64,000 nucleotides of DNA from Oscillospiraceae bacterium (GCA_015063985.1 SVTC01000010.1:1-64000), one strand, 5' to 3'; positions 31,273-50,955 are shown, counted from the stretch's first letter. Notes: generated by a model from the sequence alone, not told the origin. A program made the numbers and translations.

Positions 31273-32622
31273 ATGACCAAGATCATCATTGCCTTTGACG
31301 TAGAGGATTACGTTCATCCTCACGGCGCAGACGGCATTCTCTACTCCGCAAGGATCCTCAGGGAAAACGGTGTTGTCGGCTGCTTTAAAATAGTAGGCCG
31401 CCTGGCACAAGCCCTTGTTAAATGGGGAAGGCAGGACGTTATCGACGAGCTGAAATACCACGAGATCGACCTTCATTCCCTTGCTCATTCCTATCACCCC
31501 ACCATCAACGAGTATACCGACAGAGCCGACTATAATGCGGCTTTGAAGGAGTTTTTAAAGCAGGAGACCGAGGGGGTTGAGATAATCGACGGTATTCTGG
31601 GAAAAAGGGAGCATATCGCCGCCGCCCCTCCCGGAAACAGCGTGTCTTACGTTGCTCACTACGGCTACGCTCAAATGGGCTGCAAGGTCTATGCGGGCGA
31701 CCTTGTATTCGACAAGCTTTGCTGCAGACCTATGCACTACTGCAATCTTCTCAGCACGGATTACAATATATGTCTCGACTCTTTTCTTAGAGATAATACC
31801 CTCGATGAAATGAAAAAGTATTTCGATGGTGTTGCCGAGACTAAGGAGGTATTTACGATCTATCATCACCCCGCAATGGGAATAGTGAAAAATTTCTGGG
31901 ACATTGTGAACTTCTACTACGGCAAGAACACTCCCGAATCGGAATATAAATACGCCGATAGCTTCAGCGCCGAGGAGGTAAAGGAATTCTATTCAAGATT
32001 CGATCAGCTTGTTAAATTCCTTAAGTCCGATCCCCGCTTTGAGATCATCACTCAAAAGCAGTTGGCGGATGAGTACTACGATGCCGACAGAACCGTAAGC
32101 CTCTCTATGATCCCTGAGATCAATAAAGCCATCAAGGAAGCTCTTTTCCCCGTGACTCTGCCTTTGTCACTCTCTCTTTGTGATATCTTCCGAGCCTGCA
32201 GATCTCTTCTCCTTGGCGAGACGGAGCATAAGTGCGGGGATTCCCACGGATTCTTGGGCGAGCCCTTCGCTATAAACACTCCGTTAGAGTTCAGCGCAGA
32301 GCAGATAAGGAAAAGTGCCGAGAATATAGCCGAGGATGGCTTTTTGCCCCAATTTGTCTTTGTGGACGGAAAAAAATTGGGACCCGCCGATTGGCTCAGA
32401 GCGGCTCTTGAGGTGCTCAGCGGAGCCGAGACCGTAAGGATCAAGCCTGCACCGTGGCAGATAGAGCTTTGGAAGGTCGGGGGTCTGAGAAGTCTTTGGA
32501 AGAATATTCGCGGATGGGTGAATAATACCAACGATTACACCGATAATTATCTTTCCAAGCGCGGCGTATTGCAAAGCTGGACTATCCGTTTCCCCAAGGG
32601 AAGCCAAAGAATGATGGACTAA
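31273..32622 (+). CDS. Polysaccharide-deacetylase-like protein with C-terminal repeat-like domain (paralog 1)
   Basis: A 449-residue cytoplasmic protein. The N-terminal ~270 residues have NodB-type features: KIIIAFDVEDYVHPHGADG at the start (Asp/Glu metal ligands), LHSLAHSYHP near residue 67 (His-x3-His) and FTIYHHPAMG near 195. The C-terminal ~150 residues include SLSLCDIFRACRSLLLGE and SAENIAEDGFLPQFVFVDGK then LGPADWLRAALEVLSG, which recalls pseudomurein-binding-type repeats. No signal peptide, unlike secreted chitin or peptidoglycan deacetylases. Start has GGGAGGT. Ten bases separate it from its paralog. Likely removes an acyl or amide group from a small carbohydrate; not proven. Confidence 0.7.
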   Translation: MTKIIIAFDVEDYVHPHGADGILYSARILRENGVVGCFKIVGRLAQALVKWGRQDVIDELKYHEIDLHSLAHSYHPTINEYTDRADYNAALKEFLKQETEGVEIIDGILGKREHIAAAPPGNSVSYVAHYGYAQMGCKVYAGDLVFDKLCCRPMHYCNLLSTDYNICLDSFLRDNTLDEMKKYFDGVAETKEVFTIYHHPAMGIVKNFWDIVNFYYGKNTPESEYKYADSFSAEEVKEFYSRFDQLVKFLKSDPRFEIITQKQLADEYYDADRTVSLSMIPEINKAIKEALFPVTLPLSLSLCDIFRACRSLLLGETEHKCGDSHGFLGEPFAINTPLEFSAEQIRKSAENIAEDGFLPQFVFVDGKKLGPADWLRAALEVLSGAETVRIKPAPWQIELWKVGGLRSLWKNIRGWVNNTNDYTDNYLSKRGVLQSWTIRFPKGSQRMMD

Positions 32623-32632
32623 GGAGAAGAAT

Positions 32633-33982
32633 ATGAAAAAGACTAAGATCGTTTTTTCCTTTGATACAGAGGATCTTGTCCACGAGGGCGGAGCAGACGG
32701 AATACTTTATTGTGTCAAGGCTCTTGACGAGGTGGGAATAAAGGGCTGCTTTAACATTGTGGGGCTTCTGGCTGATAAATTAAAAAAGTGGGGAAGGCAG
32801 GACGTTATCGACGGCTTGAAAAACCACGAATTGGATCTCCACTCCCTTGATCATTCCTTTCACCCCGCTATAAACGAATATACCGATACCGAGGATTTTG
32901 ATATGGCTCTCAATGAGTTTTTAAAAAGAGAGAGTCTGGCTATTGAAAAGATAGACAGAGTCTTCGGAAAGGCTCCCCACGTTGCCGCCTGTCCTCCCGG
33001 TGTAAACGTTTCCTACGTGGCGCATTACGGCTATGAGAAGCTTGGCTGCAAGGTCTACTGCGGCGATCAGATCTACGATTGGGTCTGCGGTTCTCCCTTT
33101 CATTTTTGCAATCTCTTGACAACGGAATACGATCTGTGTTTTGATTGGTATCTTTTGCAGGATCTCTCCGAAGACGATATGAAAGCAAAGCTTGATGAGA
33201 TCGTTGCCTCGGGTAAGGCTCTCTACACCTTCTGCCACCATCCCGACAGAGGTATATACGACGAGCATTGGGATCTGTTGAACTTTGTCGGTAAAAACAC
33301 TCCCGAGGGCGAATACCGTTTTGCAAACCGCTATTCCGATGAGCAGATCGAAGCCTTCTACAAAAGAATGAAGCGCCTTATGGAATTGGTAAGAGATGAC
33401 GAGCGCTTTGAAATTGTGACGTATCAGGATCTTGCCGATGAGTATTGCTCTGAAAAAAGAGTGATAAGCCGCGATATGCTCCCCGATATAAAGTCTCAGC
33501 TTGAAGAAAAGATCTTCCCGCTGACCTCTCCCGACTCCCTCTCCCTTTGCGATATCTTCCTTGCCTGCAGAGCACTTCTCTTGGGAGAAAAGGAATTTAT
33601 CTGCGGCAGCTCCCGAGGCTTTCTGGGCGAGCCCTTCAAGATGAGAAAGCCCAACGTATTTACAAAGGAGCAGATGGTAAAGAGCGCCGAGACTATCTAT
33701 GACGAAGGCTTTTTGCCCGAGTTTATATACATTGACGGAGTTAAGATCGGACCTGCGGATTGGATGATGGGTGCGCTGGAGATACTTTGCGGAGCTGACA
33801 AGGTCCGCATCACACCTCAGCAGTGGCAGATAGATCTTTGGAGGATCAAGGCCTTCAGGGCACTTCCCCAGGCGCTTCTTTCTTCAATGGGCAGTGAAAG
33901 ATTTAATCATCTTTACGAGAAGGCCGCTCTTCAGACCTGGACTATACGTTTCCCCAAGGGTCATGATAGAATGTATAAATAA
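32633..33982 (+). CDS. Polysaccharide-deacetylase-like protein (paralog 2)
   Basis: Also 449 residues and co-linear with the preceding gene from end to end: KIVFSFDTEDLVHEGGADG, LHSLDHSFHPAINEYTDT, FCHHPDRG, SLSLCDIFLACRALLLGE, GFLPEFIYIDGVKIGPAD and a nearly identical C terminus (TWTIRFPKGHDRMYK against SWTIRFPKGSQRMMD). By eye about half of residues match. A tandem duplication whose copies have been kept intact suggests different substrates or a heteromer. Ribosome-binding site AAGGAGAAG. Confidence 0.7.
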   Translation: MKKTKIVFSFDTEDLVHEGGADGILYCVKALDEVGIKGCFNIVGLLADKLKKWGRQDVIDGLKNHELDLHSLDHSFHPAINEYTDTEDFDMALNEFLKRESLAIEKIDRVFGKAPHVAACPPGVNVSYVAHYGYEKLGCKVYCGDQIYDWVCGSPFHFCNLLTTEYDLCFDWYLLQDLSEDDMKAKLDEIVASGKALYTFCHHPDRGIYDEHWDLLNFVGKNTPEGEYRFANRYSDEQIEAFYKRMKRLMELVRDDERFEIVTYQDLADEYCSEKRVISRDMLPDIKSQLEEKIFPLTSPDSLSLCDIFLACRALLLGEKEFICGSSRGFLGEPFKMRKPNVFTKEQMVKSAETIYDEGFLPEFIYIDGVKIGPADWMMGALEILCGADKVRITPQQWQIDLWRIKAFRALPQALLSSMGSERFNHLYEKAALQTWTIRFPKGHDRMYK

Positions 33983-33992
33983 GGAGAAGGTT

Positions 33993-34760
33993 ATGACAGA
34001 CAGATTTTCTTGGAAAAAGGGTATGGCGTACGGCGTCATTGACTCGGAGAAGGTTCTTGAGGAATGTGCCGAGGGCGGTATGGACGCAGTTGAGTTTCAC
34101 CACTTCGGCGAAAAAAGGGATCTTGCGACCTGGAGTAAAAACACTGGTGTTGAGATCTGGTCAAGACACCTTATCTTCGGACACGAAAACATTGCTCACC
34201 GCACTCAGGAAAGAGTGGACGAGACCGTGGTCCTTTACAAGCAGCTTATCGAGGAAGCCGCAGAGGTGGGTGCGAAAAACGTTGTTATCCATCCCAGCGG
34301 AGAGCCCAATGAGGACGAGGTAAGAGAAGAAAGAATACTCAGAAGCATCGATGCCTTTTCAAAGCTTGTGGAGCACGCAAAGCAGTTTGGTATCACCGTT
34401 TGCTGCGAGAATCTTCCCAGAACCTGCCTTTGCAGAGATTCCGACGAGTGTCTGAGGTTTGTGGAAAGCGTCGCCGGCTTGAAGCTTTGCTTTGATACCA
34501 ACCATCTGCTCAAGGAGCCTCACAAGGACTTCATCCAAAGGGTTGGTAAATATATCCAAACTACACACGTCAGCGATTATCATTTCATCGACGAGGAGCA
34601 TCTGTGGCCCTTTGATGGCTTGATAGATTGGAAAACCGTGTTGCAGGAGCTGGAAAAGGCGGATTATAACGGTCCGCTGATCTTTGAAACGGGATATCCC
34701 GGAAATAAGACCTGCGCAGACGTTACAAAAACAGTTGAACGTATGTGCCGTTTATATTAA
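33993..34760 (+). CDS. Sugar phosphate isomerase/epimerase (TIM barrel)
   Basis: A 255-residue AP-endonuclease-2/xylose-isomerase-like barrel with GMDAVEFHHFGEK near residue 29, AKNVVIHPSGEPN, VCCENLPRT, LKLCFDTNHLLKEPH, IQTTHVSDYHF and PLIFETGYPG: the strand-end Glu/Asp/His residues that bind metal in the family. ATG at 33993 with AAGGAGAAGG. Third gene of the deacetylase operon, ended by a strong terminator; likely acts on the product of the paralogs. Confidence 0.82.
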   Translation: MTDRFSWKKGMAYGVIDSEKVLEECAEGGMDAVEFHHFGEKRDLATWSKNTGVEIWSRHLIFGHENIAHRTQERVDETVVLYKQLIEEAAEVGAKNVVIHPSGEPNEDEVREERILRSIDAFSKLVEHAKQFGITVCCENLPRTCLCRDSDECLRFVESVAGLKLCFDTNHLLKEPHKDFIQRVGKYIQTTHVSDYHFIDEEHLWPFDGLIDWKTVLQELEKADYNGPLIFETGYPGNKTCADVTKTVERMCRLY

Positions 34761-34925: not shown

Positions 34926-35873
34926 TTATTCTTCTTCCTTTTGAAAGAAATCAAGATCCAGCTTCCATTCGGGGCGCTTGCGGAAGGGGGACTTAAAGCG
35001 CTTTTTCAGCACGCCGCGTTCCTCCAGATGGACGTAGCAGGCCACGTCGCAGGCTCTGCCGCACAGGGAGCTTTCGTAGGAATGGCTTACGTGGGGATAG
35101 GCATTGGGCTCCTCAAGGATCTCCTTGGCGCTTTGCGGGCTGAGGCGGGCCTCTCCTGCCAGCAGGGCAAGGCGATCCTCGCGGGTTGCGAAGGCATCCT
35201 TGGGGAGAAATGGGTTTCTCGTGCCGTTGGCGCCCTTGTAATACACGGCGCATTGCCACGGATCCACCCTTCCCGTAGCGTCAATGGCCTTTCCCGGGCA
35301 GGCGGCAACGCATTTTCCGCAGCGGTCGCAGAGTGAGGTAGGGGGGATTTCATCGGGAGAGAGTGCAGCGTTGGTGAGAAGAAAGCAATAGCGCACCATA
35401 GGGCCGAAGTCCTCGGTCAAAAGAGCGTTGTGAAGCCCTCGTTCTCCCAGCCCGCAGGTCACGGCTGCGGCCAAAAAGTCCATTTGTACTTCTTTCTTTT
35501 TTCCGCGGTAGATCCGTTGGTGAACCATTTCGGGACTGGTGTCCTCCTCGCCCGACACGATCTGTTGGTGGCGTCGCTGGGGCAGGGCAACGAAGCCCTC
35601 CTCCTCCAGAAGATTGGCAACCCGAAGCAGGGCCATGGGCATCACGGTTTCTTCCATATTCTCTACGCCCATGGTGGTGTACTGGTAAAAGGTGCTTCCC
35701 TCCTCAATGCCTCGGTAGGCGCCCCGTAAAACGCGAAAGGCCAGTCCGATCACCGTTTTCGTTTGGGGAAGGATGCGGAATACGGGATCGTCTTTGGCAA
35801 AGCGAGAAGCGGGAGCAAAGCCCACAACGTCAGCGCCGCAGGCCTTGGCGAGGGCGATGATTCGTTCCTTCAT
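34926..35873 (-). CDS. QueG/reductive-dehalogenase-like double 4Fe-4S protein (paralog 1)
   Basis: A 315-residue iron-sulfur protein of the epoxyqueuosine reductase superfamily. N-terminal part: ADVVGFAPASRF near residue 14, TVIGLAFRVLRGAYRGIEEG near 40, and CGLGERGLHNALLTEDFGP near 150, a loop shared with QueG and RdhA. Then the ferredoxin motif CDRCGKCVAACPGKAI near 192 and a second Cys set CGRACDVACYVHLEE near 278. No Tat or secretion signal. ATG at 35873 with AAGGAGAAG; its start overlaps the stop of the next paralog (ATGA). True QueG acts on tRNA with cobalamin; whether these paralogs bind cobalamin is not visible. Confidence 0.75.
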   Translation of the reverse strand: MKERIIALAKACGADVVGFAPASRFAKDDPVFRILPQTKTVIGLAFRVLRGAYRGIEEGSTFYQYTTMGVENMEETVMPMALLRVANLLEEEGFVALPQRRHQQIVSGEEDTSPEMVHQRIYRGKKKEVQMDFLAAAVTCGLGERGLHNALLTEDFGPMVRYCFLLTNAALSPDEIPPTSLCDRCGKCVAACPGKAIDATGRVDPWQCAVYYKGANGTRNPFLPKDAFATREDRLALLAGEARLSPQSAKEILEEPNAYPHVSHSYESSLCGRACDVACYVHLEERGVLKKRFKSPFRKRPEWKLDLDFFQKEEE

Positions 35874-36766
35874 TGTCCGTCTTCTCCTTTCAAATGGCGA
35901 TAGCATGCAAGATCGCATTTTCTTCCGCAGAGGCAGGGAGCGTAACCCCATTGTGTCTTAGGGAGAAAGTCCAGGTGGGGATAGAGAGCTCCGGCAGACT
36001 CCCGATCGAAGCGCTCCTCTCCGTTGAGAATGGCTTCCCGACGGGGATCTCCCTTCAGAAAGTCCTCGGTGACGTAGGGGTTGGAGCGATGGGCGCCCCG
36101 ATAATAAACGCTGCATTGCCAGGTGTCAAGCCCCTCAGAGGAAATGGCCTTTCCGGGGCAGGCTGCCATACATTTGCCGCAGCCGTCACACACCGATTCC
36201 GTCAAGGGAGGATCCGTTTCCAGGAGAGCATCGGTCAGAATAAAGCAAAAGCGAACGAAGGGCCCGTAACGGGGGGAGAGGATCCTTCCGCTGAGTCCCC
36301 GTTCGCCCAGACCGCAGGCCTTGGCGGCCTTGCCGAAATCCAGGATCACCTCGGGGGCAGGCTTGCCCTTGCCCACGGGCTCGGCGTGGATCAATTCGTA
36401 GGTGTCCATTACCTCGGGATTGGTGCTTCCATCTCCCTTGACGCGCAGATTGGGAACGGATTTTTGCAGGCAGGCATCGTAGCCCGCATCCTCAATGAGG
36501 GCGCCCATTCGTAACAAAAGGATTTCTGCCAGCTCCTCATCGGGATACTTTACACCGAAGTTGGTGTAGGAATAAGCTTGACCGTTTTCCATTGCCAGAT
36601 ACAAGCCCTTGGGCACGGCGAAGGCAAAGCCAACGATACTCTTGGCGTTGGGAAGGATCTGTTTCGGGTCTCTTTGGGGGTCTGCTTCCTCGTACACGGC
36701 TCCGATCCCGCAAAGGGAAGCGCCGTATTCCTTGGCTTTTTCTTTGATCAATTGAGCGTTCAGCAT
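35870..36766 (-). CDS. QueG/reductive-dehalogenase-like double 4Fe-4S protein (paralog 2)
   Basis: A 298-residue paralog with the same order: ASLCGIGAVYEEAD, SIVGFAFAVPKGLYLAMENG, CGLGERGLSGRILSPRYGP, then CDGCGKCMAACPGKAI and CLCGRKCDLACYRHLKGE. ATG at 36766 follows TAAGGAGAAATGCA. The open frame upstream of that ATG is antisense-frame sequence of paralog 3 and is not part of the protein. Translationally coupled to paralog 1. Confidence 0.75.
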   Translation of the reverse strand: MLNAQLIKEKAKEYGASLCGIGAVYEEADPQRDPKQILPNAKSIVGFAFAVPKGLYLAMENGQAYSYTNFGVKYPDEELAEILLLRMGALIEDAGYDACLQKSVPNLRVKGDGSTNPEVMDTYELIHAEPVGKGKPAPEVILDFGKAAKACGLGERGLSGRILSPRYGPFVRFCFILTDALLETDPPLTESVCDGCGKCMAACPGKAISSEGLDTWQCSVYYRGAHRSNPYVTEDFLKGDPRREAILNGEERFDRESAGALYPHLDFLPKTQWGYAPCLCGRKCDLACYRHLKGEDGQ

Positions 36767-36777
36767 TGCATTTCTCC

Positions 36778-37848
36778 TTACCGATCCATTTTCCACGGCT
36801 TCTTCGTTCGCAAGGGGGAATGGAAGCGGCCTTCCATACAGCCACCCTTCTTTTCCAGCATAGATACGCATCCGCGGATACAGCCGCCGCACTTGGCCAT
36901 ATTGTAGCCGACCCAGCTGGGAAAGTATTTGGCAAGAGCCTTGTAGATCTTCACGTTCACGTCGCCGTCGGCAAAATCGGATTTTCCCTCCAACAGATCC
37001 AGCTCGCCGTTTTCGTTTTTGTCCCAGATCTCCTTGGGGACGAAGGGGTTGTAGTGTCGGCCGGCGTGGGTATAGAAGGCAAAGCAGCGCCACATATCCA
37101 CGTCGGCCCATTGGATCTTTTTGCCTTCCATTTCGATTTCCACGGTCTTTCCCGAGTCGATGGCGGGAATACAGCCGCCGGGGCATTCTCTTACACAGGC
37201 GCCGCATTTTCGGCACAGAGGCTCACCGTCGTAGATCGGATCGTACTCATCAAACTCGCCGTCGGTAAAGAGAAAGGCAAGCCGTTGCAGAGGGCCGAAT
37301 TCGGGGGTGAGAAGCATCTTGCTCCAGCCGATCTCTCCCAGACCGCAGGCCACGGCGGCAATGCGGAATTGAAACTGCAGGTCGGGAGCAGGGAGATCCT
37401 CGCGGACGGGACGGGTGAACTGCACACAGCGATGGCGTTTTTTCGTTCCCTCGGTTTCGATCTTTTCCTCGGGAGAAACGGTGTTTCCCTCGGAGCCGTC
37501 CATATCGGATACCGCACCTCTTGCTCCCGTGTTGCGGTAGGGAAAGGCCTCGTAGCCCTCGTCCTCGATCACCTTTCCCAGATGGTAAAGCACGTATGGG
37601 GCAAAAATCTCGTTGATGCCGCCGTAGGCCATAGAGGGATATTGGAAAAACTGGGTTCCCTCCTCAATGCCCCGCTGTACTCCGCGGGGAATGCGGAATA
37701 CCAACCCGATCACGGATTTCACCTCGGGAAAGAGATAATTCACGTTCATTTCCTTGGGAGCGCCCCGCAGACGGCTGACGGGGGCGATGCCGCATTTGTC
37801 CGCTCCTGCCGCCAGAGCGGCTTCTTTGATTTTTCGGTTGTTTAACAT
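36778..37848 (-). CDS. QueG/reductive-dehalogenase-like double 4Fe-4S protein (paralog 3)
   Basis: A 356-residue, longer paralog: GADKCGIAPVSRLRGAPKEM, SVIGLVFRIPRGVQRGIEEG, CGLGEIGWSKMLLTPEFGP, CRKCGACVRECPGGCIPAI and a different second cluster (MAKCGGCIRGCVSMLEKKGG, with a further Cys). An insertion at about 235-290 (EIEMEGKKIQWADVDMWRCF) separates the clusters more widely than in paralogs 1 and 2. Eight-base overlap with the upstream U32-like gene. Three non-identical copies in one operon suggest a multi-subunit or multi-step enzyme. Confidence 0.75.
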   Translation of the reverse strand: MLNNRKIKEAALAAGADKCGIAPVSRLRGAPKEMNVNYLFPEVKSVIGLVFRIPRGVQRGIEEGTQFFQYPSMAYGGINEIFAPYVLYHLGKVIEDEGYEAFPYRNTGARGAVSDMDGSEGNTVSPEEKIETEGTKKRHRCVQFTRPVREDLPAPDLQFQFRIAAVACGLGEIGWSKMLLTPEFGPLQRLAFLFTDGEFDEYDPIYDGEPLCRKCGACVRECPGGCIPAIDSGKTVEIEMEGKKIQWADVDMWRCFAFYTHAGRHYNPFVPKEIWDKNENGELDLLEGKSDFADGDVNVKIYKALAKYFPSWVGYNMAKCGGCIRGCVSMLEKKGGCMEGRFHSPLRTKKPWKMDR

Positions 37849-38783
37849 TGTCCGTCCTCCTTCAGACAGATCAGCTTTACGGGATCTGCATTTTCCAGTG
37901 CGTAGGGATAAATGCTGTGGGTCGGCTCCAAAAGGCGAAGCAGATCTCCCTCATATCTGCCGCGAAGATAACTGTCCAGCACCAGGGTGGGACAGGGATG
38001 AACTCGCGTAGCCAGCTTCATGGATTCCACCAGCCCCTCGTAGAGAGAAACCTCCTCGGGGCGAAGAAAATTCATATTTTGGTAAAGTTGAGGATAGTTT
38101 TCCTTCCGTTTCAGATAATCGCGGCAAAGCCCCGTAAAATCAAAGGCGTTGTCCCGCGTGGAAATCTCTGCTTCGTGAGATACCAGATTATCGTGAAAGG
38201 TACGGGCAGAGCAAAAGTTCAGGCATCCGCTGTTGGCTAACAAATAGAGCTTTTTTCCCTTTTTGTCGCAATAGGCCTTCAGCTTACGGATACGCTCAAA
38301 ATCGCGGTTGAACTCCCGTTTGAGATAGAAGCCGTCGAACAGCTCGTGAAGGTAGTCCATTCCCAATGCGGTGCCGATCTCCATATTCACCGAGGCACGC
38401 AGAGGAAGATCGGGAAAGTTGGCCTTCAGGAATTTGGCAATGACGGGAGAGGTTGTGGTGATCCCCTTCAAGCCGAAACGGCTTCGGATGAGCTCCACTG
38501 TATCACCGATCCTCTCAAAGAGGCGGCGGGAGAGGCTGTCCCCTCCGTAGCAATTGCCGTTGAGCAGCAGCTGCAGGCCAATGCCGACTTTTCTCACCTT
38601 TGTCAAGGCTTCTGCCAGAGCGTTCTGTGCTTCCCAAAGGGTGGCCTCGCGTTGGGGACTTTGCCCCCGTCCGTTGGGAAGCTCTCCCCAGGAAAAGTAG
38701 ACCTCGCAGATATTCTCCTTTTCTTCAAGGATCCTTTGCAAAAAGAGAGGATCCCCCGTTTGCATACCCACCGAAAACTTCAT
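37842..38783 (-). CDS. Peptidase U32-like (collagenase-like) protein
   Basis: A 313-residue barrel-like protein. KFSVGMQTGDPLFLQRI at the start, EVYFSWGELPNGRG near residue 30, LPLRASVNMEIGTALGMDYL near 135 and YLLANSGCLNFCSARTFHDN near 190 fit the U32 family; the NSGCLNFC cysteines and nearby His match the region that holds Fe-S ligands in UbiU/TrhP/RlhA-type members. U32 proteins are mostly oxygen-independent hydroxylases of ubiquinone or RNA rather than proteases. ATG at 38783 with AAGGAGAAG. First gene of the minus-strand operon with the three QueG-like proteins. Family assignment is by motif appearance. Confidence 0.6.
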   Translation of the reverse strand: MKFSVGMQTGDPLFLQRILEEKENICEVYFSWGELPNGRGQSPQREATLWEAQNALAEALTKVRKVGIGLQLLLNGNCYGGDSLSRRLFERIGDTVELIRSRFGLKGITTTSPVIAKFLKANFPDLPLRASVNMEIGTALGMDYLHELFDGFYLKREFNRDFERIRKLKAYCDKKGKKLYLLANSGCLNFCSARTFHDNLVSHEAEISTRDNAFDFTGLCRDYLKRKENYPQLYQNMNFLRPEEVSLYEGLVESMKLATRVHPCPTLVLDSYLRGRYEGDLLRLLEPTHSIYPYALENADPVKLICLKEDGQC

Positions 38784-38808
38784 TTGTCTTCTCCTTGCTT
38801 TTTTATCC

Positions 38809-38837
38809 ATTATATCGAGAGCCACGAGAGGAGACAA
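38809..38837 (-). promoter_or_regulatory. Promoter of the U32-QueG-like operon
   Basis: Minus strand TTGTCT (plus 38832-38837) and TATAAT (plus 38809-38814), spacer 17. It lies back to back with the AraC promoter at 38880-38908, leaving about 40 bases between the two -35 boxes for regulator binding. Confidence 0.7.
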
Positions 38838-38879
38838 GATTCAAAGCAAATCAAAATCACACGAAAACAAAACTATTCC

Positions 38880-38908
38880 TTGCTTTCGTCTCGATGGTGT
38901 GATATAAT
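38880..38908 (+). promoter_or_regulatory. Promoter of the AraC regulator gene
   Basis: TTGCTT (38880-38885) and TATAAT (38903-38908), spacer 17, about 30 bases before the start codon. Confidence 0.7.
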
Positions 38909-38938
38909 AATAAAACAAGTAAAAAAACGAGGTACTTT

Positions 38939-39766
38939 ATGGAGATCTTTCTTCGATATCTTGCCGTAACCGATTATCTTCCCAATCGATTTCCCACGAA
39001 AGCCTACGATTGCAGGATCCTCTTCGTGCTGGAGGGAAGGGGAGAGCTTCGTCTCAGTGACCGTACGGTGGCTCTTTCCCGATCGAGCTTTTGCTATTAT
39101 CCTGCGGGCTTTGAATATTACCCCGTATCCTCTCGGGAGGAGCCGCTGCGGTTTATCGTGATCAATTTTGATTTCTCTCTTTCCCATAGCCATAAGACCT
39201 CCACCTTTGGCCCCGTAGCGGTGGAACGGTTTTGTCCGGAGCTGGCCATCGAATCCCACAAGGGGTGCGGTGTGGAGCTGTTTCAAAAGCCCTTGGTGAT
39301 CTCCAATGCGTTCTTTTTGAAGGAGCTGATGGAAACAGTGGCGGAGGAATATAAGAAAACCACGGTATATGCCCGCGAGATCGCCGCCTCTTATCTCAAG
39401 TGCGCCTTGTTGAAGCTGGCGGGCTTTCGGGGATCCAAGGAGCATCGCGTCTATCAGCAGATCGTTGACTACGTGGCAGAGCATTATTCCGAGATAGCCC
39501 ACAACGCGCAGGTGGGAAAAGCCTTGAATTATCACCCCTATTATCTCAGTCGGATCCTGGAGCAGCACACGGGGCTTTCTCTTCACAAGTACGTCAATGC
39601 CGTCCGCCTTGCCAAAGCGGCGGAGCTGTTGGCATCTACCCGTCTTTCGGTTTCGGAGGTGGCAGGTAGGGTTGGTATTGAGAATCCCAACCATTTCTAT
39701 AATCTCTTTTCCCGGGTGTACGGCGTTTCTCCCTCGGCTTACCGAAAATCCATCGGCGCCCTATAA
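38939..39766 (+). CDS. AraC family transcriptional regulator
   Basis: A 275-residue regulator. The N-terminal ~140 residues are a cupin-like sensor (RILFVLEGRGELRLSDRTV, FCYYPAGFEYYPVS); residues about 180-275 are the two-helix-turn-helix DNA-binding domain (YHPYYLSRILEQHTGLSLHK, VSEVAGRVGIENPNHFYNLF). Divergent from the U32-QueG-like operon with facing promoters, so it is the likely activator of that operon and the locus is ligand-controlled, not constitutive. ATG at 38939 with CGAGGT. Confidence 0.88.
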   Translation: MEIFLRYLAVTDYLPNRFPTKAYDCRILFVLEGRGELRLSDRTVALSRSSFCYYPAGFEYYPVSSREEPLRFIVINFDFSLSHSHKTSTFGPVAVERFCPELAIESHKGCGVELFQKPLVISNAFFLKELMETVAEEYKKTTVYAREIAASYLKCALLKLAGFRGSKEHRVYQQIVDYVAEHYSEIAHNAQVGKALNYHPYYLSRILEQHTGLSLHKYVNAVRLAKAAELLASTRLSVSEVAGRVGIENPNHFYNLFSRVYGVSPSAYRKSIGAL

Positions 39767-40133: not shown

Positions 40134-40748
40134 TCAGTTACCGCAGCCGCAGCCCTTGTCGTAGGAAGGGTTGTAAGCATAGTAATTCTTGCAGTCAAGC
40201 TTGTCCTGCAGGCGTCTCAAGCCCTCACCGAAGCGCTGGAAGTGCACTACCTCTCTCGCTCTGAGAAAACGTATAGGTGCAATAACGTCGGGATCGTCTA
40301 TGAGTCTGAGGATGTTGTCATAGGTCAGCCTTGCCTTTTGCTCTGCTGCAAGATCCTCGAAAAGATCCGCCAAGGGATCGCCGGTGCACTGCAGACTTGC
40401 GCTTGAAAAAGGCATACCGCTTGCCGCCTGAGGCCAGATACCCGCGGTGTGATCTACAAAATAGCTGTCAAGCCCCTGATTTTTGATCTGCTCGGGGCTT
40501 AAGTTTTTGGTGAGCTGGTAAAGTATTGCTCCGATTATCTCCTGATGCGCAAGCTCCTCAGTGCCCACGTCTGTCAAAAGTCCCTTGTTTAGGTCGTCGG
40601 GCATTGTAAAGCGCTGATTGAGATAGCGCATAGACGCTCCCACCTCGCCGTCGGGGCCGCCCAGCTGACTCATAATGATCTTGGCGTATGAGGCGTTTGG
40701 TGTTTTTATCTTAACGGGGAACTGCAGCTTCTTTTCGTATACCCACAT
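40134..40748 (-). CDS. cotJC: Spore coat protein CotJC (manganese-catalase-like)
   Basis: A 204-residue protein of the Mn-catalase superfamily found in the inner spore coat. It starts MWVYEKKLQFPVKI and has GGPDGEVGASMRYLNQRF near residue 30, VGTEELAHQEIIGAI near 62 (Glu and Glu-x2-His metal ligands) and a second helix pair with DLAAEQKARLTYDNIL and AREVVHFQRFGEGL (Glu-x2-His). The carboxylate/His ligands of the dimanganese site appear intact. The C terminus ends GCGCGN. Last gene of the cotJ operon. Confidence 0.95.
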   Translation of the reverse strand: MWVYEKKLQFPVKIKTPNASYAKIIMSQLGGPDGEVGASMRYLNQRFTMPDDLNKGLLTDVGTEELAHQEIIGAILYQLTKNLSPEQIKNQGLDSYFVDHTAGIWPQAASGMPFSSASLQCTGDPLADLFEDLAAEQKARLTYDNILRLIDDPDVIAPIRFLRAREVVHFQRFGEGLRRLQDKLDCKNYYAYNPSYDKGCGCGN

Positions 40749-40749
40749 A

Positions 40750-41007
40750 TCAATACTCTCCTTCCCAGGGCCAGGGGCCGCTTATCCAATCCCAACAGCC
40801 GCAGCCTTGGGTCTTTGTTGCTCTTAAGGGGAATGAGGATTCGTTTATCTGCCTTTCAAGACTTTGCTCCAAGGCCTTGAGGCTTTCAAGGCACTGCATT
40901 GCCTCGGTGCAATCGGGATGGGTGTCCAAAAAAAGATTCACGTCATCGCAGGAAAAGCTTACACAGTAAAGCTGATCCATAAGGCATCTGAGCTTGTTGC
41001 AGTCCAT
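40750..41007 (-). CDS. cotJB: Spore coat protein CotJB
   Basis: An 85-residue protein with LRCLMDQLYCVSFSCDDVNL (typical LxxL-x-ExxF-x2-D-x3-YLDTHP-like pattern, here LFLDTHPDCTEA) and an aromatic C terminus (WDWISGPWPWEGEY) characteristic of CotJB. ATG at 41007 with GGAGGAGAGG; one-base overlap with cotJA and one base before cotJC, so translation is coupled through the operon. Confidence 0.92.
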   Translation of the reverse strand: MDCNKLRCLMDQLYCVSFSCDDVNLFLDTHPDCTEAMQCLESLKALEQSLERQINESSFPLRATKTQGCGCWDWISGPWPWEGEY

Positions 41008-41282
41008 CACAATCCTCTCCTCCTTCCGGCGCATAAAAAGGGCTTGACCAAAGAGGGAAATACGGTGCCGTTATAAAGGGAATCCTCGCAGTCGGTTATG
41101 CCCTCCCACTTTTGCACGGGGACGTATCCCATTGCAAGGGCAAAGCTTTCCTCAAAAAGGGGAGTACCCTTGCAGGAGCAGGTGCCGAAATTGATAGGGC
41201 AGGCGCTGTTCTCGCGGCATTGGCACTGATCCGACCTTTGGGGTACCCTGCACTGACATTGCATTTTGTTACAGTTATTCAA
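41007..41282 (-). CDS. cotJA: Spore coat associated protein CotJA
   Basis: A 91-residue, cysteine-rich version: the N-terminal CNKMQCQCRVPQRSDQCQC is an extension, followed by the CotJA core (LFEESFALAMGYVPVQKW then LYNGTVFPSLVKPF). First gene of cotJABC. The gene presence, with spoVM, indicates an endospore former. A CATACCAT word on the minus strand (near plus 41329) could belong to a sporulation sigma-E-type promoter, but the -35 match is poor. Confidence 0.9.
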   Translation of the reverse strand: MNNCNKMQCQCRVPQRSDQCQCRENSACPINFGTCSCKGTPLFEESFALAMGYVPVQKWEGITDCEDSLYNGTVFPSLVKPFLCAGRRRGL

Positions 41283-44878: not shown

Positions 44879-44907
44879 ACTGCCAAAGTGTTTTGAGGAG
44901 TGAAAAA

Positions 44908-45591
44908 ATGTTCAGATACGAGACACATCTTCATACGGCGCCTGTTTCAAAATGTGCTAAGGCAGACGTGGAAAGCAGTCTTGAGTTTTATAAGTCTCTG
45001 AGCTATAAGGGAGTATTTATCACGGATCATTTTCTTAACGGTAATATTAATATATCCCGTGATGAGCCGATGGAAAAAAGGCTTGACTTTTACTTTTCCT
45101 CATACGAGGAGGCAAAGAAGCTCAGCTTGGCCGTGGGAATAGACGTTTTCAGCGGTATAGAGCTTACTTATAAGGGCACCGATTTTTTGGTGTACGGCTT
45201 GGATAAGAGCTGGTTTATGGCAAGACCCGACTGGGAGACGCTTAAAATGAGCGAGCTTTTGAAGCTTATTATGGATAGCGACGCTCTTGTGATCCAGGCT
45301 CATCCCTTCAGAACGGCAAGCTATATAGACCATATAAGGCTCTTTCCTCAGCAGATCCACGGTGTGGAGACGGTAAATGCCAACAGAGAGACTCTTACCA
45401 ACGAGATGGCGGCGATCTTTGCCGAGAAGTATTCTCTTCTTGAGATAGCGGGAAGTGATAACCATCAGGGCCCCTTGCAGAAGAGGCTTGCAGGTATGGA
45501 GTTTGAAACACCTCTTAAGGATGAGAGAGATTTTATCCAAAGGATAAAGAATAAAGAGGGCAATATATTTCATTTTAAGATCGGTGGGTAA
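44908..45591 (+). CDS. PHP-domain metal-dependent phosphoesterase
   Basis: A 227-residue PHP-fold enzyme: YETHLHTAPVS at the start (His-x-His), GVFITDHF near residue 33 (Asp-His), SGIELTYKG near 75, VIQAHPFR near 122 and AGSDNHQ near 190 (Asp-x-His), giving the full set of trinuclear metal ligands. ATG at 44908 with TGAGGAG. Two bases separate its stop from the activase start, so the pair is one transcript. Likely a small phosphoesterase (histidinol-phosphatase-like or nucleotide-directed); substrate unknown. Confidence 0.85.
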   Translation: MFRYETHLHTAPVSKCAKADVESSLEFYKSLSYKGVFITDHFLNGNINISRDEPMEKRLDFYFSSYEEAKKLSLAVGIDVFSGIELTYKGTDFLVYGLDKSWFMARPDWETLKMSELLKLIMDSDALVIQAHPFRTASYIDHIRLFPQQIHGVETVNANRETLTNEMAAIFAEKYSLLEIAGSDNHQGPLQKRLAGMEFETPLKDERDFIQRIKNKEGNIFHFKIGG

Positions 45592-45593
45592 AA

Positions 45594-46496
45594 ATGGAAG
45601 GCTTGGTTTTTAATCTGCAGAAGTTTTGCGTGAACGACGGCCCGGGGATAAGGACTACCGTGTTTTTAAAGGGCTGCCCTTTGAACTGCCTTTGGTGTCA
45701 TAACCCCGAGAGCAAAAGCTCAAAGAGAGAGCTTATGTTTAATCCGCGGCTTTGCACCTTGTGCGGAAAATGCGCCTATTCCTGCAAAAATAAGTGCCAC
45801 AGCTTTTCTGAAAAAGGGCATATTTTAAAAAGGGATAATTGCAGTGTGTGCTTTCAGTGCGCAGAGCGTTGTCTGACCGGAGCCTTGGAGATCAGCGGAG
45901 AATACCGCAGCGCCGAGGAGGTGGTCGCCGAGGCGGAGAAGGACAGAGTCTTTTATGAAAACTCCGGGGGAGGCATAACCCTTTCGGGAGGAGAGCCCCT
46001 TTATCAGTTTGACTTTGCTATTGAGATACTGTCCTTGGCAAAAAATAAAGGGCTTCATACCTGCATAGAGACCTGCGGCTTTGTGAAAAGGGAGAGGATC
46101 AAGGCGGCGGCAGAGCTTGTGGATATATTTTTGTACGATATTAAGCTTTGCGACAGTGAAGAGCACAAAAAATATACGGGTGTTGATAATGCTCTTATCC
46201 TGGATAATCTTCATTATCTTGATTCTGTGGGGAAAAGCATTGTTTTAAGATGCCCCGTAATTCCGGGTATCAACGATACGAAGGAGCATTTTGAGGGCAT
46301 TGGGGAGATAGCCCGCTCGCTGAAGAATCTTTTGGAGGTGCACGTCGAGCCGTACCATCCCTTGGGAGCGGGTAAGGCGAAGCTTTTGGGAAAGGAGTAC
46401 CCCTTGGAGGAGCTTTCCTTCCCCGAGAACAGCACCGTTGAAGGATGGATATCCCAACTTCAAGCCCTTTGCCCGGTGAAGGTGAAAAAAGCATAG
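45594..46496 (+). CDS. Glycyl-radical enzyme activating protein (radical SAM)
   Basis: A 300-residue radical SAM activase. Radical SAM motif CPLNCLWCHNPE near residue 28 (Cys-x3-Cys-x2-Cys), preceded by NDGPGIRTTVFLKG. A ferredoxin-like insert carries two further clusters (CTLCGKCAYSCKNKC and CSVCFQCAERC). The SAM-binding GGE motif is ITLSGGEPLYQ near 130. This insert is typical of choline-trimethylamine-lyase, glycerol dehydratase and related activases, not PFL-AE. No glycyl-radical enzyme is in the window, so the partner must be elsewhere. Weak terminator hairpin CACCCCGACGG/CCGTTGGGGTG at 46502-46530. Confidence 0.9.
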   Translation: MEGLVFNLQKFCVNDGPGIRTTVFLKGCPLNCLWCHNPESKSSKRELMFNPRLCTLCGKCAYSCKNKCHSFSEKGHILKRDNCSVCFQCAERCLTGALEISGEYRSAEEVVAEAEKDRVFYENSGGGITLSGGEPLYQFDFAIEILSLAKNKGLHTCIETCGFVKRERIKAAAELVDIFLYDIKLCDSEEHKKYTGVDNALILDNLHYLDSVGKSIVLRCPVIPGINDTKEHFEGIGEIARSLKNLLEVHVEPYHPLGAGKAKLLGKEYPLEELSFPENSTVEGWISQLQALCPVKVKKA

Positions 46497-47445: not shown

Positions 47446-48114
47446 CTAAACGCTCATATCGATGCCCACGGCTTCCATTGCGTTAATGATGGCTTTGGGA
47501 TCGTCGAAAAGCTCTGCGGTCAGCAGACTGCATATAGAGCTGTTGGGAGTTATCAGCCATTTGCCGTCGGTCTTTATAAACTCGAGGCTGACTATAAGCT
47601 CCGCCTTTGATTGGGAGTCTGTGTGGATAGCGGAAAGGATGTGCTCGTCGATAAATTTTTTCATATCGGGAGGCTCCTTGCCGTTAAGCTCAGAGGTCAC
47701 GAAGGCATTCTTCAAGGCTCCGAAGGCCTCGGCAATGATAGTGGAGCCGTCCTTTATGCTGACGTACATATTTACGGTCGCCTTATCGGAGCCGATGCTT
47801 GAGGTGGTGAATTTATATTCCGCATCTCTTACGGCGTATTGCATATACAGAGGTACGTTTTCGGTGTATATTCCCACCATCGAGTAAAGGTAGAAGCCCT
47901 CATCGTCCAAGCCGAGAAAATAACCGCTTTCCTCCTTGGAAAGATCCATCATTGCTTCAACGGTGTCGATATCGTATTTTTTTACGGCGGCTATAAATTC
48001 ATCCGCCATTTTTTCAAACTCGTTTTGAAATTCCTTTGTTTTGGTGCCTTGCTCGGTGACGGTGCAGGAGCACAGCATCAAAAGGCACAGAGTAAGGATA
48101 ATGATCTTTTTCAT
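47446..48114 (-). CDS. Lipoprotein of unknown function, coupled to the Rnf-like genes
   Basis: A 222-residue lipoprotein: signal peptide [14 protein letters not shown] with lipobox LCSC (Cys17), then an alpha/beta domain ([20 protein letters not shown], ...) resembling small cystatin/NTF2-like extracytoplasmic domains, though I do not recognise the family. ATG at 48114 overlaps the stop of the RnfD-RnfB fusion (ATGA), so the two are translationally coupled and the lipoprotein probably belongs to the complex or to its extracytoplasmic side. Confidence 0.7.
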
Positions 48115-49670
48115 TTTAACTCCCAGATACAGTTTCTCGGACATTCATTTACGCAGCTTCCGCAGTGACAGCAGAGGCTCTGATCTATGCGGGCGATGTT
48201 TGAATCCACCTTTATTGCCTCGGTGGGGCAGACTTTCTCGCATCTGCGGCAGCCGATACATCCGGCACTGCAGTTTTTTCTTGTGGAAACGGGATCATCG
48301 GGGGACATACATCCCACAACGTACACGCTTTCTTCTCCGATGAGGCTTATAAGTCTCTTGGGGCAGGCGTCGACGCAGTCTCCGCAGCCGTCGCAGCTTT
48401 TTGCATCTATGGCGGCAATTCCCGATACTATGCGGATGGCGCCCTTCTTGCAGGCGCTGACACAGTCGCCCAAGCCCTCGCAGGCATTGAAGCAGCTTTT
48501 GCTTCCGCCGCCGACAAGTGCCACGCTGGCGCAGTTTTTGGCGCCGTCATAGCTATGCCTTGCCTGACAGTGGGGATCGCTTCCCAGGCACAGCAACACT
48601 GCCTTCATTTTCTTTTCATTGGCTGCGGGGGAGCGTTTTTGTCGGTTTACCAGCATAAGAAAGTCGGTGACGTAGTCCTTATGCCTTTTTGCGGTCTTTT
48701 TGCCCTTTGCTCGCTTTATTCCCGTTCCGAAGGGCACAGGCAGGGTCAGAGCCTCAATAACGGGGCTCAGAAGGTTGCAGATGCAGATGGCAAGGTACAT
48801 TCCCGCAATGCCGCCGGTAAGTCTCACGCAGGCAAAGCACATAAGTCCCGCAAGAGAGCCGAATACTATTCTGCCTTTTTTTGTGGCGGGGGTGGTCACG
48901 GGATCGGTTACCATAAACGCTGCGGCAAACATTACTCCCGAGCTTAAAAGGTAGCCGAGGGTATATTCAAGGGAGTTGGCAACGGGAACGGAAAAAAAGC
49001 AGGGCAGAGCATTGAAAACAAGAAAGCTGATGCTGAGGCGTGCATCCGCGGTATGTCTTATGCAAAGATACAAAAGACAAAGAGCGGTAAGAATGGCGGG
49101 TGAAAAGAAGAGTATTCCTTGTTGAGAGCCTAAAAGCAGGTCTTCAAGCTTTTGCGGCGGTATCGAGCCTTGGCTGAAAATGCTCATGGGAAGCTCGCTT
49201 CCGGGCAAAAGGTCAAAGCTTGGGGTAAGGGGATCGGGCTTATCGCTTACAAGAGTCATTGAAATGGGAAAGATAAGATTTACCGCAAGCAATGCCGCGG
49301 CGGCGGGGTTTAAAAGATTTTTCCCCAAGCCTCCGAAAAGCGCTTTGAATATCACTATTGCCAAAAATGATGCCACCGGGCACATCCACAGCGGGACGGA
49401 GTTTGGCATACAGCCTGCCAGGATAAGCGCGGTAACGGCAAAGGAAAGGTCCTTTACCGTTAAGCCCGCCTTGAAAAACAGACCGCAGACAAGCTCGAAT
49501 ATAAAGCAGAAAACGAGGCACAGAAGGCAGACTGTGAGGGCGCGCGGGCCGTTGGTGAATACGCTCCACGCAGTAAGGGCAAGGAGCATAAATATAACGT
49601 CTGCCATTATGCTTTTGGTGCTGTCGGCGTGGCGAAGATAGGGGGCGGAATCCATATGAAGCTTATTCAT
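48111..49670 (-). CDS. Fused RnfD-RnfB-like electron transport protein
   Basis: A 519-residue fusion. Residues about 1-310 are RnfD/NqrB-like: about nine hydrophobic segments, [20 protein letters not shown] near residue 105 and [16 protein letters not shown] near 250. I see no SGAT-type motif for covalent FMN in the expected loop. Residues about 340-519 are RnfB-like: cysteine cluster region ([20 protein letters not shown]), then three 4Fe-4S sets ([36 protein letters not shown]), without the usual RnfB membrane anchor, which the fusion supplies. Eight-base overlap with rnfC. In complete Rnf operons D and B are separate and flank G, E and A, none of which is present here. Confidence 0.85.
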
Positions 49671-50955
49671 CGGTCAGCCTCCTTTTCTTGGCTATTTTTA
49701 TAAGGTAGTTCAAGGGCACGTTGGCAGGGCAAACGTAGGTGCAAAGCCCGCATTCGGAGCAGAGGGATACGTCGTTGAGGTTTTTATAAAAGTCTTTGAA
49801 TCTGGCTTTGGCTGCTCTTTCGAAGTAGAAGGGGACCAGCTTCATAGGGCATACCTTTATGCATCTTCCGCAGTGGATGCAGTTCCCTCCTGCTTTTTTG
49901 TTTCTCTCCTTGAAGGCTATCACGGCGGAGGTGTATTTTGCCACCACCGCACTGTCGTTGGAGACACTGTAGCCCAGCATGGGACCTCCGCAGACCAGCA
50001 TATAGGGCTTTTGCTTCAAGCCTCCGCAGTTTTTAATAAGATCTCTCAATGAGGTGCCTAAGGGCACTCTTTTGTTCTGAGGCTCGCCCATACAGTCTCC
50101 CGCGGCGGTCACTATTCTTTCTATTACCGGGACTCCGGTTTTCATTGTCTTATCCGCCATAGAGCAGGTGGCGATGTTGAAAACACCGCAGCCCGCGGCG
50201 GCGGGAATGCTGTCGGCTGAGATCTCCTTGCCCAGCACCTCTTTGATTATCTGTCTTTCGTCGCCGATGGGATATCTGTCGCTTACCGTCTTCAGGCTCA
50301 GCTCGCCCGCGGAGAGGGCGCAAAGCTTTCTGCCGATGATCTCGTGGCGCTTTTCTATTACAAGAAAGGCGTTTTGCGGCTTCAGGATCTTTTTCAGCAT
50401 CAGCGCTCCGTCGATGCAGTGGCGGGGATTTTCGCTTATCTCTCTGAAGGTGGAGGAGCACATGGGCTCGCATTCCGTGGCATTGATGATAAGAGTGTCG
50501 GTTATGCTTCTCAAGCTCTTGAGCTTGGCGTAAAGAGGATATCCGCCTCCGCCCATTCCCACAACACCCTTATCCTTGAGAAATGCGACAATAGCGTCAA
50601 AGTCCTCGGGATCGCCGCCGTAGGGAATATTGGTTTGGCAGGGCGCGGAGGAGAAATCGTTTTCGATAAGGACGAAAATATCGTTTTTGCCTCGGCTGTT
50701 TATTCTTACCTCCAGGGAGCGGACCTTTCCCGATATGGGGGAATGAACGGGCACGGAAAGTCCGTTCTGAGCCGCCTCGCCGATAAGCTGACCCTTTTTG
50801 ACCTCGTCGGAGGGCTTGACGACCGCGGTTGCGGCTATGCCCACGTGCTGACTCATTGGAAGGCTTATGAGCTCGGGGGGAGCTATGGGCTTTGATCTGA
50901 GCTTATCGGTCTTGTCGAAAAGCTCCATATCTACGTAATAGTTTGATCCTGCCAT
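49663..50955 (-). CDS. rnfC: RnfC-like electron transport complex subunit
   Basis: A 430-residue NADH/flavin-binding subunit: [20 protein letters not shown] near residue 54 (lipoyl-like), [16 protein letters not shown] near 130 (FMN/NADH loop; typical GMGGA-G/T-FP), the SLBB region [15 protein letters not shown], and two ferredoxin sets [12 protein letters not shown] and [12 protein letters not shown]. Length normal. ATG directly abuts the stop of the GH95 gene. It would deliver electrons from NADH or accept them from ferredoxin with the fused membrane subunit. Confidence 0.9.

Follow-up and report, generated by a model that had tools for sequence, protein, structure and literature searches.

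An AraC-linked operon of three QueG/RdhA-like iron-sulfur proteins and a U32-like protein: a candidate redox system of anaerobic gut bacteria

We analyzed a 64,000-nucleotide stretch of DNA from an Oscillospiraceae bacterium (GCA_015063985.1, SVTC01000010.1:1-64000; "the window"), in which a gene for an AraC-family regulator faces an operon of four genes. One of the four encodes a distant relative of the U32 family (U), and the others encode three different relatives of QueG and RdhA (Q1, Q2, and Q3). We are nearly certain that U-Q1-Q2-Q3 makes up a four-protein redox system that is conserved and co-regulated. Our best explanation is that the operon is one functional unit and that it encodes an inducible, probably corrinoid-dependent reductive system for a sugar-derived substrate (we put the probability of this at roughly 40%).

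To our knowledge, the B12-dependent redox chemistry of the class III fold has just two established uses, the reduction of epoxyqueuosine in tRNA and dehalogenation, and the only substrates of the characterized U32 oxidases are RNA and ubiquinone. The four-protein set joins both families, across several anaerobic phyla, which points to a missing reaction in the anaerobic metabolism of carbohydrates. A search of the open-access literature found no description of the four-gene system and no paper on QueG-like paralogs together with U32 or AraC proteins.

Results

The operon and its surroundings

The genes of the operon and the regulator are:

38939..39766, plus strand: AraC-family regulator, divergent from the operon, with an N-terminal cupin domain (HTH_18, E = 1.2e-22; Cupin_2, E = 4.9e-5)
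37842..38783, minus strand: U, U32-like protein, 313 amino acids; invariant cysteines 78, 187, 191, and 220
36778..37848, minus strand: Q1, class III B12-type (QueG/RdhA-like) Fe-S protein, 356 amino acids, with an insertion; cysteines 212/215/218/222, 255, and 320/323/327
35870..36766, minus strand: Q2, QueG/RdhA-like Fe-S protein, 298 amino acids; cysteines 193/196/199/203, 218, and 278/280/284/288
34926..35873, minus strand: Q3, QueG/RdhA-like Fe-S protein, 315 amino acids; cysteines 182/185/188/192, 208, and 271/275/279

A sequence-only reading of the window had recognized a U32-like gene, three QueG-like genes, and a divergent AraC gene, and all five are where it had placed them. The operon runs in the order U, Q1, Q2, Q3 on the minus strand, opposite to the AraC gene on the plus strand. 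The four genes had been described as overlapping, which is true of U and Q1 (by 7 nt) and of Q2 and Q3 (by 4 nt, ATGA), but between Q1 and Q2 there are 11 nt, which include a ribosome-binding site. The high GC content of the locus had been taken to suggest transfer. The Q genes are indeed GC-rich (56-58%, versus 48.6% for the whole window), but this does not demonstrate transfer: because their GC3 (0.64-0.68) is level with or slightly above the highest values among the other genes in the window (range 0.47-0.66), composition alone is a weak sign of horizontal transfer. In the plasmid, phage, and viral collections that we searched, there was no copy of the four-gene system.

Several other features of the window caught our attention. 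Two tandem 449-amino-acid proteins (31273-33982) resemble polysaccharide deacetylases, without a clear match in Pfam or NCBIfam. A manganese-catalase-like protein, together with two short ORFs upstream of it (40134-41282), resembles the spore-coat CotJ cluster, which suggests, by similarity, that the host forms spores. A glycyl radical enzyme activase (45594-46496) is preceded by an ORF for a PHP-like phosphoesterase (44893-45591), and we saw no gene for a glycyl radical enzyme beside it. A 519-amino-acid ORF (48111-49670) matches RnfD at its N-terminus and a ferredoxin region of the RnfB type at its C-terminus, so it is possibly an RnfD-RnfB fusion; it is followed by RnfC (49663-50955). There is also a Gut-1 RNA at 92-162 on the minus strand (52.7 bits).

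Conservation and distribution of the four genes

We scanned the species genomes of GTDB with the U family, which gave 339 relatives, and we retrieved the best 80 of the 339 for a comparison of loci. About 65 loci have U, Q1, Q2, and Q3 in the same order. Where the contig covers the whole locus, the four genes are all co-directional, or else U is divergent (L058 and L068). The exceptions are contig ends and two loci with U only, in which U adjoins genes for DUF5696 and/or acetyl xylan esterase and there is no Q gene (L028:7929-12834 and L075). Since these two loci carry U alone, U can apparently function apart from the Q proteins. An independent search of whole genomes, seeded with Q1, found Q2 and Q3 at 22 of 22 loci and U at 20 of 22. 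This kind of neighborhood survey had been suggested in advance, and it shows that the Q and U genes travel together rather than being scattered in other genomes, the outcome that would have counted as a refutation of the sequence-only reading.

A tree of 214 Q proteins has three clades (support of at least 0.999) that match the positions of the genes exactly: 77 proteins are Q1, 70 are Q2, and 67 are Q3. For example, members of the Q2 clade are at the second position in 70 of 70 loci, and members of the Q3 clade are at the third position in 67 of 67. The conserved synteny and the position-specific clades bear out the proposal, made from the sequence alone, of a multi-protein system. The distance matrices covary as well (r = 0.90 for Q2 and Q3; r = 0.74 for U and Q3). 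Across the 67 loci in common, Q1 has a median pairwise identity of 83%, Q2 of 63%, Q3 of 61%, and U of 53%. Because U, Q2, and Q3 at the same loci have diverged far more, we infer that constraint, not recency, accounts for the high identity of Q1. The AraC proteins have a median pairwise identity of just 28% (53 loci).

The carriers are chiefly Clostridia of herbivore guts, along with Victivallales/Lentisphaerae, Opitutales, one genome from the Planctomycetia, and others; nearly all of the loci come from metagenome-assembled genomes. The system is sporadic. It was found in 16 of 394 genomes from the window's order (at E ≤ 1e-60; this count is less strict and takes in a few relatives at about 43% identity), in 19 of 391 genomes from the class (with a profile for Q1), and in 1 of 398 genomes drawn evenly from the phylum.

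The Q proteins form a third clade of class III B12-type proteins

We are very confident that Q1, Q2, and Q3 have the class III B12 fold. When we compared a predicted structure of Q1 (pLDDT 81.9; the insertion, at 109-145, is of low confidence) to known structures with Foldseek, all 46 matches with E ≤ 1e-3 were class III B12 enzymes (PceA, QueG, and NpRdhA), and the next matches were the B12 chaperones CblD and CblC. The model combines a B12-binding module with a two-cluster ferredoxin fold, as in class III enzymes, at modest TM-scores to these matches (about 0.39-0.44). PceA-type enzymes rank first for Q1 both by sequence and by fold. Each of the three proteins has eight conserved cysteines in the two-cluster pattern of QueG and RdhA; in QueG, these ligate two [4Fe-4S] clusters (PMC4646009). 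A changed spacing of the second cluster had been noticed, and it holds for Q2 and Q3 (CxxxCxxxC), while Q1 has CxxCxxxC, as QueG does. The insertion that had been noticed in one paralog is present as well, in Q1 (which had been numbered as the third paralog).

The sequence-only reading's description of the three paralogs as QueG/RdhA-like is upheld by the fold matches of Q1 and by the scores against NCBIfam models, although all of these scores are far below the cut-offs for membership. Q1-Q3 score 42.8-51.9 bits against RdhA (TIGR02486; cut-off 160) and 21.8-40.9 bits against QueG (TIGR00276; cut-off 200), and Q1 scores higher against RdhA (43.7 bits) than against QueG (21.8 bits). We also ran the phylogeny that had been proposed, taking as references the QueG of E. 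coli together with sequences of RdhA and QueG-like proteins that other genomes encode. The tree has three groups, which are RdhA, QueG (support 0.995), and the Q superfamily (0.965). The Q proteins fall outside of the RdhA clade and nearer to QueG, and they are separate from both.

The residues aligned with the catalytic motif differ as well. The catalytic motif of QueG is DYH (PMC4646009). This motif is absent from Q1-Q3, where the aligned residues are I-N-E (Q1), x-D-E (Q2), and M-E-E (Q3). In an alignment that spans large distances, the tyrosine that QueG and RdhA have in common appears to align with N79-E80 in Q1, D76-E77 in Q2, and E74-E75 in Q3; these residues are nearly invariant within each class. 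Candidates for the equivalent of Asp130 of QueG are the acidic residues D156, D/E139, and E128, and this mapping is ambiguous because the insertion precedes the GLG motif. C-terminal HEAT repeats are absent: little sequence remains beyond the second cluster motif in Q1-Q3. Elsewhere in its genome, at C6, the host carries a separate gene for a QueG-like protein.

U is a distant member of the U32 fold family

The AlphaFold2 model of U (pLDDT 92.6) has a U32 protein as its best fold match in the PDB (5d88, E = 7.7e-12), and the next match is seven orders of magnitude worse (E = 7.6e-5). The fold thus vindicates the earlier assignment of U as U32-like. By sequence, the relationship is marginal: U from the window scores 12.2 bits against Pfam's U32 family (PF01136), below the gathering score of 22.4, and that model matches just 10 of 43 members of the U family at E ≤ 0.1 (the best at E = 6.6e-4). 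C78, C187, C191, and C220 are invariant and would suit one [4Fe-4S] cluster.

A conserved operator upstream of U

The predicted regulatory sites are:

38847..38871, minus strand: predicted AraC operator, with direct half-sites TTTGTTTT (38871-38864) and TTTG (38850-38847), 21 bp apart
38809..38837, minus strand: predicted operon promoter, TTGTCT-17-TATAAT, 10/12 match to the consensus
38880..38908, plus strand: candidate AraC promoter, TTGCTT-17-TATAAT, found by eye; 9/12 match, with just 3/6 in the -35 box; below the scan threshold

We found TTTGTTTT in 43 of 51 homologous spacers between AraC and U, versus a mean of 3.8 and a maximum of 11 in 200 dinucleotide shuffles. It occurs once on the other strand of these 51 spacers. 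The distance to the next TTTG downstream is most often 21 bp, and that from the start of the operator to a -10 box is most often 56-57 nt. In the window, the -35 box is at 38837 and the -10 box is at 38814, or 57 nt from the start of the operator, as in the homologous loci. Half-sites that adjoin the -35 box are the layout expected of an AraC-type activator.

Control by AraC, as proposed, is supported by this conserved operator. The proposal of back-to-back promoters with 17-nt spacers fared less well: the operon promoter is a good match, but the AraC promoter is under the scan threshold, and promoter-like sites in the region do not exceed the level of shuffled sequences (3 found versus 2.6 expected). 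Because that count is at the level of chance, the promoters stand only through the conserved operator. Since the AraC proteins are just 28% identical across loci, those at different loci may respond to different inducers.

Sugar-related neighbors

Of 39 genes directly after Q3, 18 encode a Gfo/Idh oxidoreductase and 8 encode a protein with DUF5696 (GH101/GH129-like). Elsewhere on those contigs, just 13 of 312 genes are Gfo/Idh. Both enrichments directly after Q3 are significant (P = 9e-12 for Gfo/Idh and P = 4e-7 for DUF5696, Fisher exact test). The Gfo proteins that adjoin the operon are about 72% identical to each other. In 26 of 65 loci, there is a cupin gene, or a gap of that size, between Q1 and Q2. 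Other neighbors at homologous loci include GH43, aldose epimerase, and acetyl xylan esterase.

The window itself has no sugar gene after Q3; a xylose-isomerase-like TIM barrel lies beyond Q3 at 33894-34760, on the strand opposite to the operon. Because sugar genes are common in the carriers' genomes, the sugar neighborhood may be partly background. We rate a carbohydrate-derived substrate as an even bet. Two loci have a glycyl radical enzyme (about 740 amino acids) and its activase directly beside the operon (L041:4020-6993 and L043:3990-6975), and the enzyme at L041 falls far short of the cut-offs of all named equivalogs in NCBIfam.

Relatives of the Q proteins also occur in loci with other arrangements. 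Most of the related Q-only loci face AraC genes, and some are near GH20, NAGLU, or GH2 genes. In the host genome, an AraC gene faces a Q (341 amino acids) and a U (342 amino acids) at G000:C7:547-3562 (L011); this U carries a C-terminal CNKxCxxCxYC motif, which the window's U does not. Also in the host, at G000:C20 (L010:4249-7404), an AraC gene faces a 738-amino-acid fusion of two Q proteins. Fused double-Q proteins have 738-777 amino acids (C20, L152, and L153), mostly face an AraC gene, and are near GH2, GH20, sugar isomerase, or Gfo/Idh genes. Q-Q pairs without U (L152, L154, L157, and L158) have lengths of about 311 and 373-408 amino acids and mostly face AraC-like genes, and two of the pair loci adjoin GH20 or NAGLU-type genes.

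Is a corrinoid involved?

A link to a cobalamin riboswitch, which had been suggested as a check, did not materialize: the window has none, ahead of the operon or elsewhere, and a search of ten homologous loci found none either. The host has two cobalamin-riboswitch-like elements that score just under the gathering threshold, one ahead of an ECF-type transporter (recognized from its sequence and not by a family search) and the other ahead of a second putative uptake locus. Because of these elements at uptake loci, and because the host has three B12-binding proteins, a corrinoid is probably available to it by import. We saw no direct sign that the Q proteins bind it: the TM-scores of the Q1 model to QueG and PceA are just about 0.40-0.44, and the tyrosine of QueG and RdhA is absent in the alignment. 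Still, we consider it likely that at least one of Q1-Q3 binds a corrinoid.

Discussion

A proposed mechanism

The conservation of the unit, its folds, the cluster ligands, the operator motif, and the neighboring sugar genes are observations; for the corrinoid, the substrate, the reaction, and the division of labor, we infer the following. The AraC protein would switch this low-potential reductive system on when a carbohydrate-derived compound is present. Electrons from reduced ferredoxin would reach the pair of [4Fe-4S] clusters in the Q proteins and from there reduce a base-off corrinoid in the nitroreductase-like domain to Co(I). Co(I) would then cleave a C-O bond (or a similar bond) of the sugar-derived substrate, much as QueG acts on an epoxide, with a proton from the conserved acidic/amide residues in place of the usual tyrosine. 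We propose reductive C-O cleavage only tentatively. Q1, as the most constrained protein, would probably be the main catalytic subunit, and Q2 and Q3 might be its partners in one complex or might catalyze linked steps. U, as a U32-type [4Fe-4S] TIM barrel, might take care of oxygen transfer or dehydration on the same substrate. Where a sugar oxidoreductase or glycosidase-like protein is encoded downstream, it might prepare the substrate or consume the product. A bolder version, which we would not bet on, is that the system adds a third branch to the catalytic repertoire of the class III B12 enzymes, beside the reduction of the tRNA epoxide and dehalogenation: a heteromeric, AraC-inducible U32-Q1-Q2-Q3 system for the Co(I)-driven deoxygenation of carbohydrates, or the cleavage of ethers or epoxides, during anaerobic use of glycans, with sister Q-Q pairs and fusions that act on other sugars.

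Alternative explanations

U might instead be the catalyst, as a U32-type hydroxylase or dehydroxylase that works without oxygen, with Q1-Q3 as dedicated partners for electron transfer or cofactor handling rather than corrinoid reductases. The four invariant cysteines of U, as in UbiU/UbiV-type proteins, the two loci where U occurs without Q genes (L028 and L075), and the missing tyrosine in Q1-Q3 would all fit. However, none of the other proteins comes close to Q1 in conservation (83%, versus 53% for U), and Q-type pairs and fusions occur without U, so we think that this is unlikely. Another idea is the reductive removal of a halogen, methoxyl, or hydroxyl group from a plant aromatic or a xenobiotic, as by a catabolic reductive dehalogenase. 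Most of the loci are from herbivore guts, and RdhA outranks QueG for Q1 (43.7 versus 21.8 bits), with PceA-type enzymes at the top by sequence and fold. This seems improbable, as Q1 is well under the RdhA cut-off of 160 bits, the tree places the Q proteins outside of RdhA and nearer to QueG, and the neighbors are sugar genes and not aromatic pathways.

The sequence-only reading had left open whether the substrate was a small molecule or RNA. The glycoside and sugar neighborhood favors a small molecule, and we found no evidence or context to support RNA, so we set RNA aside. Both founding families include RNA-modifying enzymes, and the system might modify a queuosine-like base, for instance, as with QueG, RlhA, or TrhP. 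This is very unlikely given that the unit is AraC-linked and sporadic (16/394 genomes in the order and 19/391 in the class), that the Q proteins lack the HEAT repeats and the DYH motif, and that the host has its separate QueG-like gene at C6. Finally, we give hardly any weight to the idea that the Q and U proteins serve in the handling or remodeling of corrinoids, as CblC/CblD or CbiR do. After the class III enzymes, the best fold matches are CblD and CblC, and the TIM-barrel gene beside the operon is weakly similar to CbiR (40.9 bits, versus a cut-off of 105), but that family recurs in just 3 loci, the ten homologous loci that we searched have zero cobalamin riboswitches, and B12 genes were not seen at the homologous loci that we read.

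Implications for annotation

The Q and U proteins are likely to be mislabeled as epoxyqueuosine reductase and as peptidase, and "queG" annotations in gut genomes should be read with caution before they are taken as a capacity for queuosine. The four-protein system offers concrete targets: one operon, one operator, and one highly conserved protein.

Comparison with known systems

The Gfo/Idh neighbor of many homologous operons is reminiscent of the Gfo/Idh/MocA pathways of gut bacteria (glycoside 3-dehydrogenase and inositol dehydrogenase). We know of no such pathway that includes QueG/RdhA-like or U32 proteins. With the U32 oxidases UbiU/UbiV, RlhA, and TrhP, and with Mk0906 (PDB 5d88), U shares the TIM barrel and four invariant cysteines. 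U differs in its marginal similarity to the Pfam family, in its tie to Q genes in most loci, and in the order of its cysteines: CX108CX3CX28C, unlike the CX6CX15CX3C of U32 families or the CXnCX12CX3C of UbiV (PMC6747719, PMC11574389).

With RdhA/PceA (TIGR02486; PDB 4uqu, 4ras, and 8q4h), the Q proteins share the GLGxxG...TPEFGPxxR...TD region, the two clusters, and the fold class, but the Q operon is without a gene for a leader or a membrane anchor, and the position of the catalytic tyrosine is N, D, or E. With QueG (TIGR00276; PDB 5d08 and 5d6s), they share the fold of the N-terminal, B12-binding, nitroreductase-like module and the two-cluster ferredoxin pattern CxxCxxCxxxC ... C ... CxxCxxxC, which is exact in Q1. 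In contrast to QueG, the Q proteins are without DYH and the HEAT repeats, have an insertion before the GLG motif, and are three co-transcribed paralogs under AraC control.
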